DNA of 37,086 nt from an uncultured Spirochaetota bacterium (GTDB taxonomy: Bacteria; Spirochaetota; Spirochaetia; Treponematales; Rectinemataceae), in NCBI GenBank assembly GCA_903821875.1, contig CAIJMU010000054.1:1-37086 (forward strand), in the 5' to 3' direction. The notes below the pieces were generated by a model. That model was not told the origin of the DNA. It searched no databases and saw nothing but the letters and a program-made list of their open reading frames with translations. Made by a program: the position numbers and the translations under genes. Positions 3,779 through 10,313 of this stretch are shown here, one piece after another (position 1 is the first letter of the stretch; every line of letters starts with the position of its first letter).

Positions 3779-4354
3779 ATGGAGCAGGAGGGGGCTGAAG
3801 GAGTTCCCGGAAGCGAGGCTGACGACGCGGTCATCCAGCGCGTCCTCGACGGGGATACGGAAGCCTTTGCCCTCCTCGTCCGGAGGCATTCGCAGCGTGT
3901 GCACCGTGTCGGTTTTGCCTGGTTCCGTGACCATGACGATGCCGAAGACCTCGTGCAGGAAGTGTTTACAAAAGCCTACTCCAAGCTGGCCAGCTTTCGA
4001 GGGGGCTCGCTTTTTTCGACCTGGTTGATCCGTATTGCATATAACACCGCCACCACTGGAAAGGCGAGAAAGCGTGTCCACGAGGAATTCCACGAGGATG
4101 CCTACACCATAGGGGATAACCCGGTTGAGGCCGAGGCAGTTGCGCGCGAAGCTGCCCGGGAAGTGCGGGAAGCCCTTGCTACCCTTTCCCCTGAGCAGGC
4201 TATCTGCGTTGAACTGGCTTTTTTCCAGGATCTTTCGTACATCGAGATTTCCAAGGCGAGCGGATTTCCCGTCAACACGGTGAAATCCCATGTTTTCAGG
4301 GCAAAGCGGCTCCTTCGGGAGCGCCTGGACCCCGGACTGGGAGGCATGACATGA
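3779..4354 (+). CDS. ECF-family RNA polymerase sigma factor (RpoE-like)
   Basis: The 191-residue protein has a sigma-2 domain at about residues 30-100 (LVRRHSQRVHRVGF then DAEDLVQEVFTKAYSKL, which binds core polymerase and melts the -10) and a sigma-4 domain at about 135-185 (LSPEQAICVELAFFQDLSY plus the helix-turn-helix NTVKSHVFRAKRLLRERL). Regions 1.1 and 3 are absent, which defines the ECF class. The only usable start is ATG 3779, with purine-rich AGGAAGGGAG running right up to it. The last four bases (ATGA) overlap the start of the anti-sigma gene, so the two are translationally coupled. It probably directs its own operon from 3341-3370. The stress signal is unknown. Confidence 0.93.
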   Translation: MEQEGAEGVPGSEADDAVIQRVLDGDTEAFALLVRRHSQRVHRVGFAWFRDHDDAEDLVQEVFTKAYSKLASFRGGSLFSTWLIRIAYNTATTGKARKRVHEEFHEDAYTIGDNPVEAEAVAREAAREVREALATLSPEQAICVELAFFQDLSYIEISKASGFPVNTVKSHVFRAKRLLRERLDPGLGGMT

Positions 4355-4851
4355 CCTGCAAACGATTCATGGAACGCTATGATTCCCTCGAGCCAGGTGC
4401 TGCCCCGAGCTTCTTCATTGCCCGCCATCTCCATCAGTGTGATTCCTGTCGGGCTTCCATCGCTCGCGTGGACGCTGCCTTGGCAGCCTGGCGCGGAGCT
4501 GAGCTCGCGGCGATTGGTTCACAGGCCTCTGCCGAGCGCAGCGAGGAAAGGATCATGGCAGCGGTCCGGCTGACAGTACGCCCCAGACGGGAACTGAGTA
4601 TGGCCCAGTGGTTGCTGCCAGTCGTCATCGTGGCAGGCTCGAGCGTCCTCCTTCCCTTGGCCTTGACCGGCGGCCCCCTCGCTTCGGTTTCAGATGGAGC
4701 GCTGACCTTCTCGCTGGCGATGATCCTCGGGGTCGGGCTCGCCATCTTTGGCTCTCTCTTCATCATCAGCCAGGCGGAGGGGATCCTCCCTTGGGTGGAC
4801 GAGCATTCAGAGGAGTGGGGCATCGGCAATTTCCTGCATGGGAGCCATTGA
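4351..4851 (+). CDS. Membrane anti-sigma factor with zinc-finger (ZAS-like) domain
   Basis: The 166-residue protein begins with a short cytoplasmic domain carrying an H-x3-C-x2-C motif (HLHQCDSC, residues 27-34), the hallmark of zinc-binding anti-sigma factors that hold an ECF sigma inactive at the membrane. Two membrane helices follow at about residues 86-106 and 116-140, with only a short tail, so there is no large periplasmic sensor domain. The start overlaps the sigma stop by 4 bp. Its partner is the sigma factor at 3779-4354, and release may involve the small membrane protein at 3431-3766. Identification rests on the motif plus operon position rather than strong overall similarity. Confidence 0.8.
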   Translation: MTCKRFMERYDSLEPGAAPSFFIARHLHQCDSCRASIARVDAALAAWRGAELAAIGSQASAERSEERIMAAVRLTVRPRRELSMAQWLLPVVIVAGSSVLLPLALTGGPLASVSDGALTFSLAMILGVGLAIFGSLFIISQAEGILPWVDEHSEEWGIGNFLHGSH

Positions 4852-4941: not shown

Positions 4942-5493
4942 TCAGTTCCCTTCCCTGATGATCTCGATCTTGATGCCCTCGGGAGCATCGGCATCTTCCT
5001 TCGGGGGAATGCTCACCTTGAGTATTCCGTTCCGGAAGCTGGCCTTGACCTTCTCCTGGGAGAACTTGTCCGCCGGCACGTAGTACTTCTGCTTTTCAAC
5101 GTCCTTGAGCTTGAGGCGGCGCTTCACATAGCGGAGGCCGTCCTCGGCGACGTTTTCGAGGCCGATGCGTGCTGAAAACACCATGTAGTCACCTTGGAAG
5201 GTGAGCTGGATGTCCTTTTCGTCAAAGCCCGCAAGGGCGAACTCAAAGACCATCGAGCGATCCGGGGTAAGGTAGATGTTCATGGGTGGAAAGGAATATC
5301 CGGGGTAATAGTCTGCGTTGTTGTCATGCCCCATGTCAAACCAGGGGGAGCCATGGGCGCCGTGGGCTGGGTCGGGACCAGGGCCGTCGTGCGGCATCTG
5401 GAACTCCTTGCCCATCTTTTCGCTGAAGTCACGCGCAGCGCTGAAAACCTCGTCCAGGATCGTACCGATGTCTACATACATGCGGTCTTTCAT
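4942..5493 (-). CDS. Small heat-shock protein, Hsp20/alpha-crystallin family
   Basis: The 183-residue ATP-independent holdase keeps unfolding proteins soluble. An alpha-crystallin domain covers about residues 75-175: it starts at PPMNIYLTPDRSMVFEFALAG and ends with the conserved ASFRNGILKVSIP. The C-terminal tail has IKIEI in place of the usual I-x-I anchor. The N-terminal arm is long and rich in H, G, P and D. ATG 5493 is chosen because AAGGAGGA sits 4 bases upstream; the frame extends further up but without a ribosome site. The leader is highly structured and pairs the ribosome site (see 5497-5628). Transcription probably starts from 5636-5664. Confidence 0.93.
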   Translation of the reverse strand: MKDRMYVDIGTILDEVFSAARDFSEKMGKEFQMPHDGPGPDPAHGAHGSPWFDMGHDNNADYYPGYSFPPMNIYLTPDRSMVFEFALAGFDEKDIQLTFQGDYMVFSARIGLENVAEDGLRYVKRRLKLKDVEKQKYYVPADKFSQEKVKASFRNGILKVSIPPKEDADAPEGIKIEIIREGN

Positions 5494-5496
5494 GAT

Positions 5497-5628
5497 CTCC
5501 TCCTTGGGAGCGAGCGATGTGCCCGGCTCTCGACCGGGAAACACCATTGATCATCTATTGCCCCCCATACGGGGCGGCTCCTGCCATCCTTGATGGCGTC
5601 CGCGGATCCCTTCGGGCATCCACTTCGT
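5497..5628 (-). promoter_or_regulatory. Structured hsp20 leader, candidate ROSE-like RNA thermometer
   Basis: Reading the minus strand toward the ATG, four hairpins occur: GGATGCCC/GGGATCC, GCCATC/GATGGC, GCCCC/GGGGGC and CCCGG/CCGGG. A last one at 5514-5497 (CTCGCTCCCAAGGAGGAG) pairs CUC and CUCC with the full GGAGGAG ribosome site, leaving one bulged G. The bulge lies in UCGCU, which fits the UYGCU motif that faces the Shine-Dalgarno in ROSE thermometers of proteobacterial small heat-shock genes. The element lies in the leader of exactly that gene class. No CIRCE repeat is present. Folding was judged by eye. Confidence 0.55.
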
Positions 5629-5635
5629 ATAGTAA

Positions 5636-5664
5636 AAGATAGTGATGATTTCCGAGCGGGGCAA
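5636..5664 (-). promoter_or_regulatory. Predicted sigma-70-type promoter of hsp20
   Basis: On the minus strand, TTGCCC (5664-5659), a 17-base spacer and TATCTT (5641-5636). Transcription would begin near 5629 and give a leader of about 135 bases that contains the hairpin series. Confidence 0.45.
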
Positions 5665-5690
5665 GCCCTGACCCGCTCTGCGAAAAAAAA

Positions 5691-5716
5691 GCCGCCCGGC
5701 TGTGATGCCGGGCGGC
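5691..5716 (-). terminator. Intrinsic terminator after the 5'-nucleotidase
   Basis: Perfect 10-bp stem GCCGCCCGGC / GCCGGGCGGC, loop of 6. On the minus strand it is followed by eight T (5690-5683), 18 bp past the stop of the upstream gene. Confidence 0.95.
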
Positions 5717-5733
5717 CTTTTGTCTAGAATCCC

Positions 5734-7590
5734 TTACTTGTAGAGGAGGGGGAAATCGACTTTCTTCCCTGCCTCGGCGACATCCGCGGGGATGACGCTC
5801 CAGTTGCCGATGGGTGCGACTGTAACTGCACCCTTCTGCTTCTGGAACCATCCGAGGAGGTAGAAGCGGAGGTCCTTGGTGGTGGCTCCGTTCACGAACT
5901 GGAGTTTGCCGACGGCGACCTTGTCCATGCCGGCGCCAGTGGTGAGGTGGCCTCCGCCGCCAGATCCACGGTAGGAGTTGATGGCGACAACATAGTTCTT
6001 GGCTAGGTCGAAGTTGCTGCCGTCGGCCATGGAGGCGATGGCAACGCGATCTCCCGCTTGCCTGGTGACATCGACAGTGTAATTGATGCCAGCCGCGGAA
6101 TCGTAGTTGTAGGAGGCGGAGGCAGTCTTGTAGGCAGGCAGGGTCTTGCCCTGGGGATCCCTGACAAAATTGATGAGGTGGTTCCCGTCGTTCGGCAGGG
6201 TATCGAACCAGCCCTTGTAGGAGAACTCGAGGAAGTCCTTAACCTGCTGGCCGCTCATGTCCATTGTGTAGAGGAAGTTCTCGTACTGGTAGAGGTTGAA
6301 CATGTCACGGACATACATGGTGCCATCGGCCGAGCTCGGGATGGTAGCGTCGAAGGTGAGGGGAGCCGCAAAGGAGATGTCCGCCTTCTTGAGCCCCATG
6401 GCGGGATCGGTGGAAAGGTCGAGCTGGATGCGGTGGATGAGGTCGACAAAGGCCGAGTCGCCGAACATGGAGTCGCGGGTCGTGATCTTGCCGGCGAGCT
6501 TGCCGACAGGCTGGTCGACCCATGTCTTTACCGCATCGTAGCGGGACTTGAAGCTGCTGGTGAATCCGGGGTCGGCTGTCAGCCAGTCGGTGGGGACAAG
6601 GGCTGCGTTAAACGACTTTTTCCAGGCCTTGGCCTTGGCATCATACTGGAGGGAGATGTCCAGGCGGCTGACGTTCTTGGCAGCGTTGACGGCTCCGACA
6701 ATCCAGACCTTCTTGCCGTCGGGCCCGATCACGTCCACCTTCTTCTTGGCGGCGGGATCCCAGCCCTGGCCGTCCCAGCCTGAGTGGTCGTGGCCGACAA
6801 ATATGGCATCGAAGCCCGCGACCTTCTGGGCGACGAGCTGTGCGGCGTTCTCGTTTTCCTTGGTATCGGCGGTGCTGCCGCCGTAGCTGTAATCGACCCC
6901 TGCGTGGAAGAGGCCGATGAGGAGGTCGGGATGCTCATTCTTCTGGATGATCGGTACCCATTTCTGGGCAGTCTCGACCATGTCGACGAATTTCATGCCG
7001 GTCCAGAACTGGGGAGGAAGCCAGTCGGGGATCTTGGGCGTGATCATGCCGAGGATGACGATCTTGACCCCTTGGCGCCAGATGACCGAATAGGGCGTGA
7101 AGTAGGGATTGCCATCGGCCTTGACGGCATTGGCGCAGAGGACGGGCGCCCTGATCTCGTCGAAGAGCTTGTCGTAGACGGGGTGGCCTGCCTCTATGTC
7201 GTGGTTGCCCACGCCGACCGCATCGTACTTGAGGTAATTGATTGCTTCAGACCAGATGTGGGGCTCTGCGGTCTTCACGAAATTGTAGTAGTACACAGGA
7301 GGCTGGCCCTGGAGGGAGTCCCCGTTGTCCAATAAGATGGTTTCGCGCGTGGTGTCCTTGCGGAGCAGGCCTACATAGGTGGCTACCTGGGCCAGGGAGG
7401 CAGCCGCGGGTTTCGCGGTGATGAAGTTGTAGGGGAAGATCGAGCCATGGAGGTCGGTGGTCTCCACGATGCTGATATTGAGCGGTTTGTCGGCGAAGGC
7501 CGTGGTCGGATCGACCGCTGCCTGTGCATAGGTGTAGGCGATGGTCGCGAAGGCGAGAACGGCCGCCGTTACGATTCTGGAAATCCGCAT
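5734..7590 (-). CDS. Exported 5'-nucleotidase / 2',3'-cyclic phosphodiesterase (UshA/CpdB family)
   Basis: The 618-residue metallophosphatase is exported and dephosphorylates nucleotides outside the cytoplasm for scavenging. A signal peptide (about residues 1-24, ending TYAQA) is followed by the metallophosphoesterase domain with the metal motifs ETTDLHGS, DNGDSLQG, GNHDIEAG, LFHAG and GHDHSG. The C-terminal substrate-binding domain includes the LYQYENFLYTMDMSGQQ region. At this length it is closer to CpdB-like enzymes than to classical UshA. ATG 7590 is used because AAGGAGGG lies just upstream; the open frame begins earlier without a signal-peptide context. A paralogue lies at 29101-30630. 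It ends in a strong terminator. Confidence 0.9.
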   Translation of the reverse strand: MRISRIVTAAVLAFATIAYTYAQAAVDPTTAFADKPLNISIVETTDLHGSIFPYNFITAKPAAASLAQVATYVGLLRKDTTRETILLDNGDSLQGQPPVYYYNFVKTAEPHIWSEAINYLKYDAVGVGNHDIEAGHPVYDKLFDEIRAPVLCANAVKADGNPYFTPYSVIWRQGVKIVILGMITPKIPDWLPPQFWTGMKFVDMVETAQKWVPIIQKNEHPDLLIGLFHAGVDYSYGGSTADTKENENAAQLVAQKVAGFDAIFVGHDHSGWDGQGWDPAAKKKVDVIGPDGKKVWIVGAVNAAKNVSRLDISLQYDAKAKAWKKSFNAALVPTDWLTADPGFTSSFKSRYDAVKTWVDQPVGKLAGKITTRDSMFGDSAFVDLIHRIQLDLSTDPAMGLKKADISFAAPLTFDATIPSSADGTMYVRDMFNLYQYENFLYTMDMSGQQVKDFLEFSYKGWFDTLPNDGNHLINFVRDPQGKTLPAYKTASASYNYDSAAGINYTVDVTRQAGDRVAIASMADGSNFDLAKNYVVAINSYRGSGGGGHLTTGAGMDKVAVGKLQFVNGATTKDLRFYLLGWFQKQKGAVTVAPIGNWSVIPADVAEAGKKVDFPLLYK

Positions 7591-7680
7591 GGAATCCCTC
7601 CTTGTGGGCACTGTGCCGGAATGGTTCCGAGTGAACTCACTGCCGGCTACTTTCAATGGATGCACAGTCGACTCTAGCAC

Positions 7681-8253
7681 TCAATCCCCTTCGCCGGAAG
7701 GCCGAATCCCCAGGGACTTGAGCGTGGCTGCAGCCCGGTCCCGCTCGCGGGAGAGCCCGAGCTCGTCGTAGGTGTCATGGAGGTTGAACCAGGCCTCCCC
7801 GTGTTTCGCTTCGATGGAGATCGCCTTTTCGAAGGCCTTTCGGGCCTCCCCGTAAGCACCGCGCCGGAAGTGGACGACGCCCAGGTCGTTCCATGCCTCC
7901 GCCGAAAGCGGCTCGAGGGCGAGGGCCGCGTCATACCTCGCGACGGCCAGGTCCCAGTCGTCCGATTCGTAGGCGACAAGGCCCAGTGCCAAGAGGAGGT
8001 CCGCGGATTCTCCCTCGATCCGGAGCACCGACTCAAGGTCAAAGCGGGCCTCGTCGAGCCGACCTGCCCTGCGCAGGGCCTCCCCCCGGTTGTAGAGGAG
8101 GTCAGGCTCGTCGGGAGCAAGCGTGAGGGCCTCCGTGAAGGCGGCTATCGCCTCCTCGTAACGGCCCTTGTCCGTAAGATGTCGGCCCCTTTCGTCGAGC
8201 TGGCGGACTGTGGGGCTGCCATGGTCTGGTTTCAGTGGCTCATCGGGGCTCAA
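7681..8253 (-). CDS. TPR-repeat protein coupled to the adenylate cyclase gene
   Basis: The 190-residue protein is almost wholly tetratricopeptide repeats: about four 34-residue units from residue 16 to 165 (for example GRYEEAIAAFTEALTLAPDEP and GAYGEARKAFEKAISIEAKHG). No signal peptide or membrane helix is seen, so it should be a cytosolic protein-protein adaptor. The start is TTG 8253; it overlaps the cyclase stop as TTGA and has GGAG 6 bases before it, so translation is coupled to the cyclase. No internal ATG exists in this frame, which supports the TTG. It may scaffold or tune the cyclase, whose own C-terminus also looks TPR-like. The specific partner is unknown. Confidence 0.85.
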   Translation of the reverse strand: MSPDEPLKPDHGSPTVRQLDERGRHLTDKGRYEEAIAAFTEALTLAPDEPDLLYNRGEALRRAGRLDEARFDLESVLRIEGESADLLLALGLVAYESDDWDLAVARYDAALALEPLSAEAWNDLGVVHFRRGAYGEARKAFEKAISIEAKHGEAWFNLHDTYDELGLSRERDRAAATLKSLGIRPSGEGD

Positions 8254-10313
8254 GGAATGCTCCGGTTCATGCAGGTCTCCATGTAGAAGGATGCGGCCCC
8301 GTCCTCGGGGACGATGTCGCGTACACGTTTGAAATAGTACATGGCTCCTGCGAAATCCCGCTGATAGTAGGCCAGCATGCCCTGCTCGAAGAAGGTATTG
8401 GCTTTTATCTTCCGCTCGAAGAGCGAGGCTTCGATGCCATCGAAGATCTCGAAGACCGAGACAGGATCGGCCTTTCCCTTCACCTTGACCTTCCCGATGA
8501 AGCGGAAGGTATAGGCGCCGGGATCCTGGAGGGACATGAAGACCTGCTCGGAAATCGCAAGGGGCACATTGAAGGCCTTGGTGATGGCCTGGAGGCGGGA
8601 CGCGAGGTTCACCGCGTCGGAGATGACCGTGTTCTCCATGCGGCCCTCGACACCGACGACACCGAGCATGAGGGAGCCTTGGTGGATACCGACGCCCATC
8701 GAGATGGGTCGATATCCCATTTTCGCACGGTGGCCATTGTACTCGATGATCTTGCCCTGGATATCTATGGCTGCACGGATGGCCTTGTCCGCTCCATCCT
8801 CGGCCGGATAGAGGGCCATGATGGCGTCGCCGATGTACTTGTCGATGAAGCCCCCCGATTCGGTGATAAGGGGCACGACCCGGGACAGGTAGGAGTTGAT
8901 GAAGGCGAAGTTCTCTTCGACCGTGAGCTTTTCGGACAGCTCGGTGAAGGCCCGGATGTCGGAGAAGAAGATGGTCATGTCCTTCTTCACGTGGTCCCCG
9001 AGGCGGAGATCGATGACATCCTTTTTTTCGAGGGCGGTCAGGAACTCCTTGGGTATGAAGCGTTCGACGGTCTTGTGAACGTTCAGCACATAGTCGGAGA
9101 GGGCCTCGGTGGACTGGAAGCTGTACCTGATCTTGCGGAGGAGTCCGACCGTCGTTGTGAGTGCGAACAGGACGGTACAGAGTGGCTCGAGGTAGAAAGC
9201 GTTCACTGGCTGGTTGGGGAAAAGGAACCTGAGCGGGATGGCCACCAGAAGGAAGAGGGGCGGAAGGGCCAGCCAGCGCGCACGTCGCGCACCTCTGATG
9301 GCCTGGATCGACAGCCCGACAAAGCTGGCAAAAGCGAGGAGCATGTAGTACGCAAGAACCAGCCAGTGGATCGAGTAGAGGCGATCGGGAATCGCAAACT
9401 CGGCAATGGCAAAGAGAACGAGCGGAATGGCGGGATACCTAGTCTTGAACTTCCGTTTTTCCGAAAGGACTATGCTGAAGAACCAGGCCAGGGGCAGGGT
9501 CTGGAGGATGATGGACAGGGAGTGGAGGAGATCCTCGTCGACGAAGGATAGGTCAAAGGGGAGGAGGGCCCGGGAGTTGACGAGGTAGCGGAGGGCCTCA
9601 GAGACAAGGAGGATGGCAAAGGCGAGGAACTCATGGTTTTTCCGCCAGAGGTTGTAGAGGAAGAGGAGAAAGATGCCCGACAGGGCAAAGGCTGCGACAA
9701 TGGAGAGGGCTATCAGGCTGGACATAACGAGGAAGCGGCTCATGGAACCCGATTCTCCGAGGGCCACGAAGTCGGGGGATAGCCTGTTTGCGTCAATGCC
9801 CTCGGCACCGGCTGGCGCCCAGACAAGGATTTCCTGGGAGGGGTCGGCACTGGTAAAGGTGGTCTGACCGGAAATAACCTCGTGCTGCCTGCCATTCACG
9901 AAGACACTGATGCCTGGTGAACAGGTCGGCAGTACGAGGGTCAGGGCGCGTTCCGCGGCGGGCCCCACTATAGTGACCCTTAGCCGGTAGCTTCTGTCCA
10001 TGCTCCGGTCGTCCTTGGACATCAGGATGTCTGCACGCGAACGCATGCTTACGAGGGTCGCTGGGCTCCCTGAGAGCTCATCAAGACTGAGGAGGCCCTC
10101 GTAGCGCTCCCACGAGCCTAGGGGGATCAGCACGCCGTCGCGGGGATCCCAGGTGATCCCTTCCAGAGTCGTATCGGTGACGAAGGTTCGGGTAAGGTCA
10201 CAGGAAACAAGCCCGGGGATCAGCAGCAGCACCAGCAGGAACCCGACCGTGAACCGCAGGCCTGGCAGGCGGGGGGGCGGGGTCTGAATAGATGAGATGC
10301 CAGCTTTCTGCAT
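8250..10313 (-). CDS. Membrane class III adenylate cyclase with 7TM sensor region
   Basis: In this 687-residue protein a first hydrophobic helix (about 20-37) ends in a lipobox-like GLVSC. An extracytoplasmic beta-rich domain follows (about 40-190), then about seven membrane helices (195-400), as in 7TMR-DISM receptors. The catalytic domain (about 430-610) has both metal aspartates (FFSDIRAF and KYIGDAIMA), the purine-selecting lysine of DKYIGD and the aspartate of ISDAVNLASRL, which fit ATP as substrate. A short TPR-like tail ends the protein. It should make cAMP in response to an external ligand. No Shine-Dalgarno precedes ATG 10313; the promoter at 10320-10348 points to a leaderless mRNA. 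The TPR gene is co-transcribed. Confidence 0.9.
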   Translation of the reverse strand: MQKAGISSIQTPPPRLPGLRFTVGFLLVLLLIPGLVSCDLTRTFVTDTTLEGITWDPRDGVLIPLGSWERYEGLLSLDELSGSPATLVSMRSRADILMSKDDRSMDRSYRLRVTIVGPAAERALTLVLPTCSPGISVFVNGRQHEVISGQTTFTSADPSQEILVWAPAGAEGIDANRLSPDFVALGESGSMSRFLVMSSLIALSIVAAFALSGIFLLFLYNLWRKNHEFLAFAILLVSEALRYLVNSRALLPFDLSFVDEDLLHSLSIILQTLPLAWFFSIVLSEKRKFKTRYPAIPLVLFAIAEFAIPDRLYSIHWLVLAYYMLLAFASFVGLSIQAIRGARRARWLALPPLFLLVAIPLRFLFPNQPVNAFYLEPLCTVLFALTTTVGLLRKIRYSFQSTEALSDYVLNVHKTVERFIPKEFLTALEKKDVIDLRLGDHVKKDMTIFFSDIRAFTELSEKLTVEENFAFINSYLSRVVPLITESGGFIDKYIGDAIMALYPAEDGADKAIRAAIDIQGKIIEYNGHRAKMGYRPISMGVGIHQGSLMLGVVGVEGRMENTVISDAVNLASRLQAITKAFNVPLAISEQVFMSLQDPGAYTFRFIGKVKVKGKADPVSVFEIFDGIEASLFERKIKANTFFEQGMLAYYQRDFAGAMYYFKRVRDIVPEDGAASFYMETCMNRSIP

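Follow-up and report, generated by a model that had tools for sequence, protein, structure and literature searches.

A candidate ROSE-type RNA thermometer and conserved bulged-G hairpins in the leader of a spirochaete hsp20 gene

The analysed stretch of DNA (37,086 nucleotides from an uncultured Spirochaetota bacterium, here called the window) carries an hsp20 gene with a leader that is probably a divergent cis-regulatory RNA of the ROSE type, which would place the gene under translational heat control. ROSE elements have been described mainly in alpha- and gammaproteobacteria. By its architecture the spirochaete leader is ROSE-like, by covariance model it is not a member of the family, and its response to heat is what we infer. 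Two points are new: the phylum, and a bulged-G hairpin that is separated from the masking of the Shine-Dalgarno sequence (SD). Neither an Rfam family nor, in a literature search outside subscription papers, a publication describing the spirochaete leader was found.

The hsp20 coding sequence (4942-5493, minus strand) starts with the ATG at 5493 and encodes an Hsp20 protein of 183 amino acids (Pfam PF00011, 4.9e-9). The closest relatives are spirochaete MAGs, in agreement with the origin proposed in the preliminary description. An in-frame ATG 54 bases upstream (5547), which would add 18 residues, has no support as start codon, since homology begins at 5493; the 18 extra residues are not conserved among the relatives. 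The best-scoring promoter of the leader according to our scoring script is a predicted sigma-70-like sequence, TTGCCC (5664-5659)-17 nt-TATCTT (5641-5636), on the minus strand (5636-5664). It is absent from the listing of a stricter consensus scan, for which 9 of 12 matches were required. Most hsp20 leaders have a TTGCYY-17-TATaTT-type sequence as their best site at a similar position, with scores above those of control genes (p 7e-10). From the promoter position a transcription start near 5629 is predicted, 5′ of all hairpins, which would give the hsp20 mRNA a leader of approximately 135 nt. A mapped start inside or downstream of the hairpins had been named beforehand as an argument against a thermometer; the predicted one lies upstream of them.

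In a sister genome (L004) a different gene is located upstream of hsp20, and therefore the leader belongs to hsp20. An adenylate/guanylate cyclase gene directly adjoins the leader there, while in the window a 5′-nucleotidase gene and a TPR-like gene (5734-10313) separate the cyclase gene from it; thus, this interval has been rearranged and the leader stayed with hsp20. Between the 5′-nucleotidase gene and the hsp20 promoter lies a strong inverted repeat (5691-5716) that is flanked by T runs on either side and resembles a bidirectional terminator. Low-scoring Rfam matches near 5690-5720 were set aside, since they reflect this adjoining terminator. The opposite strand immediately downstream of hsp20 carries genes for an ECF-type sigma factor and an overlapping probable zinc-finger anti-sigma protein (3779-4851, named from their translations), and the same pair flanks hsp20 in L004.

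The leader (about 5494-5629, minus strand) folds in silico as five hairpins, all on the minus strand. The first, GUGGAU-G-CCC-gaa-GGG-AUCCGC (5602-5623), has a bulged G in its 5′ arm; the second, GCCAUC-aag-GAUGGC (5583-5597), is without bulge. The third, GCC-G-CCCC-guau-GGGG-GGC (5560-5578), again with a bulged G in the 5′ arm, is termed hairpin A and is backed by covariation (see below). The fourth, GGUGU..CCCGGU-cgaga-GCCGGG.ACAUC (5516-5545), lacks a conserved bulge. The last hairpin, CUC-G-CUCC-caa-GGAG-GAG (5497-5514), contains the SD, GGAGGAG (5497-5503), and its UCGCU (5513-5509) faces the AGGA of the SD. The chain of hairpins in a leader of about 135 bases and the closure of GGAGGAG by CUC-G-CUCC with one bulged G, both proposed in the preliminary description, are confirmed by sequence and fold. 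Bulged-G hairpins thus occur three times in this leader (5602-5623, 5560-5578 and the SD hairpin at 5497-5514). Among 1000 dinucleotide shuffles of the leader, three such hairpins were found in none and two in three. A model built from spirochaete hairpin A sequences only (R1) has these same three hairpins as its top matches in the leader: hairpin A is the best, the first hairpin the second (5603-5622) and the SD hairpin the third. Hairpin A of the window is the counterpart of a conserved spirochaete hairpin and, in plan, of ROSE hairpin I.

For the comparison with relatives one genome per species was scanned, which yielded 80 orthologous loci, nearly all from spirochaete MAGs. Hairpins with one bulged base were then counted in 81 spirochaete hsp20 leaders and in shuffled versions. 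Hairpins with a bulged G in the 5′ arm were observed 108 times against 8.2 in the shuffles; for the other bulge types the numbers stayed near chance (7-9 each in the shuffles): A, C and U bulges of the 5′ arm were counted 18, 12 and 12 times and G bulges of the 3′ arm 21 times. At least one bulged-G hairpin is present in 72 of 81 leaders (a slightly revised set), compared to nine of 133 upstream regions of other genes on the same contigs. The most constant of them is hairpin A, YYC-G-CYC-loop-GRG-GRR, in which the bulged G and the next C are fixed. MAFFT misplaces the 3′ arm when hairpins of mixed loop length are aligned; hence classes of fixed length were used for the covariation analysis. 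The 21-nt class contains 49 double-change cells against 18 after shuffling (reached in 0 of 500 shuffles; slid controls at most 9), and the 23-nt class, to which the window belongs, contains 25 against 7.5 (0 of 500; slid controls at most 5). These alignments were chosen by structure and are biased towards it; the whole-leader shuffles and the control genes are free of that bias. Covariation had been proposed as a check of the SD-masking stem. It is strong in the upstream hairpin A, while the SD stem cannot show it because the SD itself is fixed.

At tandem hsp20 loci (L008, L011, L012) the structure stands ahead of the first gene and is absent from the intergenic regions. One clade of hsp20 leaders is without hairpin A (L010, L015, L018, L019, L025, L035, L057). 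Several of these leaders have SD hairpins of the GGUUUUCC-uuaa-GGAGGAAACC type together with a GGGAAUGCGC..GCAUUCC hairpin, perhaps as a replacement of the bulged-G plan.

The hairpins might instead serve mRNA stability or transcript folding, as a stable 5′ structure that guards a heat-shock mRNA without controlling its translation. They do lie just 3′ of the predicted start, and a role in ibpA mRNA stability has been suggested for hairpin I in Pseudomonas (PMC3669281). However, stability alone would require neither an invariant, oriented bulged G nor a UCGCU kept opposite the SD, and we consider this explanation improbable.

To search whole genomes, a second model (R2) comprising hairpins A and B was built from 24 Treponema-type leaders; R1 was dropped for this purpose, being too short, with matches that were mostly chance. 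Over 38 whole genomes R2 gave 29 matches at E<=0.1. The 26 with E<=0.01 are all leaders of hsp20 orthologues, one per genome; one match (E 0.016) precedes a divergent hsp20 paralogue, 33% identical, and the two weaker ones resemble chance. In 393 further genomes of the phylum eight matches with E<=0.001 were found, all in hsp20 leaders and seven from new genomes. Thus, hairpins A and B are found solely before hsp20 genes in the genomes searched. R2 detects the window's own clade poorly, and the evidence there is therefore provided by the bulged-G counts, the covariation of the 23-nt class, the shuffles and controls, and the R1 matches.

The masking of the SD is distributed differently. UYGCU is present within the 37 bases before the SD spacer in nine of the 18 leaders near the window and in two of 133 control genes. 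On the Hsp20 tree, a quick tree with some long branches, it marks the window's clade (six of eight members with their own leader) and the deep paralogues L008a, L011a, L012a and L134a, and it is missing from leaders elsewhere on that tree. The proposal that UCGCU stands opposite the SD as in ROSE is supported for the window, where it faces AGGA and is conserved in the clade. In the Treponema-type branch hairpins A and B are kept and the SD is predicted to be more open than in control genes (median opening 0.59 versus 0.24, p 1e-7). The function for which hairpin A is conserved there cannot be SD masking, and such masking is not a trait of the spirochaete family as a whole. The upstream bulged-G hairpin, missed in the preliminary description, is the more widely conserved part. 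At L063 (Breznakiella homolactica, a cultured relative), L042 and other Treponema-type loci a GGAGCCU close to the SD could base-pair with AGGC of codons 2-4 (AUGAAAGGC), as seen by eye and in folds, and the start codon would then lie within a small loop. A switch in which the 5′ arm of hairpin A pairs with the SD was considered and dropped, since such pairing is possible in some relatives and poor in the window.

Predicted SD masking was rejected as the main test because it fails to distinguish hsp20 from the control genes; on these mostly GC-rich contigs about 30% of the control genes have a predicted SD opening below 0.1. Masking that is so common among control genes of these contigs would fit a chance encounter of the purine-rich SD with a pyrimidine stretch in a GC-rich leader. 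For the leader as a whole chance is already refuted by the shuffle, control-gene, covariation and genome-wide tests, and we regard it as extremely improbable. The E. coli ibpA leader is a proven thermometer. In folding over a range of temperatures, the check proposed for the leader, the SD hairpin is predicted to form but not to open below 55°C: nearest-neighbour folding keeps the SD of the window closed up to 55°C. The nearest-neighbour melting curves from 20 to 65°C are flat for the E. coli ibpA thermometer as well and are thus uninformative.

Translational heat control of hsp20 is, by analogy with ROSE, the most likely role of the leader. The bulged-G hairpins would fold first; the last hairpin would then close the SD by placing UCGCU, the core of ROSE, across from AGGA, in a helix made labile by its bulged G. 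As long as the temperature is low, this would keep ribosomes from the SD. Upon warming the last hairpin would open and Hsp20 would be made, while the more stable upstream hairpins would remain folded. What the analysis establishes is the anatomy of the leader, its conservation, its confinement to hsp20 and its resemblance to ROSE; temperature control, the order of melting and the role of the upstream hairpins are predicted.

The main rival to the thermometer is the possibility that the bulged-G hairpins bind a protein, most likely the small heat-shock protein itself, which would keep its own mRNA repressed as long as no clients draw it off; the SD hairpin would then be one more binding site and not a thermometer. 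Several copies of the module per leader would suit an oligomer, and hairpin A, with a fixed pyrimidine 5′ arm and purine 3′ arm around the invariant bulged G, is kept in branches with an open SD. E. coli IbpA binds its own 5′ UTR and represses its own mRNA, for which a cationic stretch is needed (PMC10474464); the cationic stretch KRRLKLKDVEKQK is conserved in spirochaete Hsp20s. Yet the critical Arg93 of IbpA has no Arg aligned to it in the spirochaete Hsp20s, in an alignment that is gapped there, and protein binding does not require UCGCU to face the SD. We rate protein binding as rather unlikely; a thermometer and a binding protein could also act together.

The role of the ROSE upstream hairpins is stated to be incompletely understood (PMC3669281). 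The spirochaete leaders form a large, covarying set, absent from Rfam, in which the upstream hairpin is naturally separated from SD masking. They make testable what the job of this hairpin is where there is no thermometer to fold, and their alignment could serve directly for defining a new RNA family. Tentatively, ROSE may be an older and wider RNA class than assumed, in which the bulged-G upstream hairpin is functional in itself and is retained across the spirochaetes, those with an unmasked SD included, probably as a recognition site (e.g., for the small heat-shock protein), the SD thermometer hairpin being a further copy of the module.

The Rfam ROSE and ROSE_2 models did not match in the window or its genome, and no hit reached the gathering score when the window and 20 relatives were searched against Rfam; membership in either family, raised earlier as a check, is accordingly not supported at that score. 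In the same search the ROSE or ROSE_2 model matched 17 of 20 proteobacterial controls (E. coli ibpA and 19 plasmid-borne proteobacterial hsp20 loci) with E<=0.01, and in 16 of these the gathering score was exceeded. The Rfam consensus itself contains an upstream hairpin with a bulged G in the 5′ arm, cCgGcc-G-CC..GG-ggCcGg in ROSE and GgCCU-G-UCC.. in ROSE_2, and UYGCU at the SD; a C follows the bulged G of ROSE hairpin I in all 16 sequences examined. The spirochaete model R1 gave seven matches in the 20 proteobacterial hsp20 loci (28.9 kb), five of them inside ROSE elements: three in hairpin I (L167, L164, L171) and two in the SD hairpin (L175, L176). Individually these matches are weak (best E 0.005). 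Since ROSE elements account for about 3% of the strands searched, five of seven is unlikely by chance (about 3e-7 in a binomial calculated by hand, with relatedness ignored). In both phyla the upstream and SD hairpins thus look like copies of one module.

The plan of ROSE might also have been reached independently by the spirochaete leader. Such convergence concerns origin and is compatible with a thermometer mechanism. The lack of an Rfam match and the constraint that the SD puts on one strand would fit it, and sequence conservation among RNA thermometers is low (PMC4166951). Against it, the bulged-G hairpin and the UYGCU SD hairpin are two separate features, found jointly and repeatedly with one gene family; in addition, R1 matches hairpin I of ROSE, on which the SD imposes no constraint. 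We consider convergence possible but the less probable origin.

Among the closest known systems is ROSE (RF00435) of alphaproteobacterial heat-shock leaders. Like the window it has an hsp20 leader of about 95-135 nt and a last hairpin with U(U/C)GCU opposite the SD, and like the spirochaete leaders an upstream hairpin whose 5′ arm bears a single bulged G and, directly after it, a C (GAGCC-G-CCUGUAAGG-GGCUC in S. meliloti, GAACC-G-CCUGUACGG-GGGUCC in the spirochaete locus L082). The ROSE SD hairpin opens upon heating (PMC3669281). The window leader gives no covariance-model match; its middle part differs, it has three bulged-G hairpins, and its SD hairpin is short and lacks the long lower stem that encloses this hairpin in the Rfam consensus. 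ROSE_2 (RF01832, E. coli ibpA) likewise has UCGCU at the SD and, just upstream, a hairpin with a bulged G, GACCU-G-UCCA-uug-UGGA-AGGUC, but beyond these two elements its sequence is unrelated and its model does not match. The short ROSE-like thermometers of Pseudomonas ibpA (PMC3669281) resemble the window in a short U(U/C)GCU SD hairpin and a GC-rich upstream hairpin, and deletion of the G of the motif locks the SD hairpin there (PMC3669281). They have two hairpins only, and their heat response is proven, that of the window predicted. A ROSE-like leader of an Anabaena hsp gene, cited in PMC4166951, is a precedent for such control outside the proteobacteria. The ROSE-like plan proposed for the window is supported by UCGCU opposite AGGA and its conservation in the window's clade, by the upstream bulged G of the Rfam consensus and by a predicted start 5′ of the hairpins. 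Common to ROSE and the window are the location in the leader of a small heat-shock gene, a series of consecutive hairpins (two to four, or more), a final hairpin that sets U(U/C)GCU against the SD and, upstream, a hairpin whose 5′ arm contains one bulged G.
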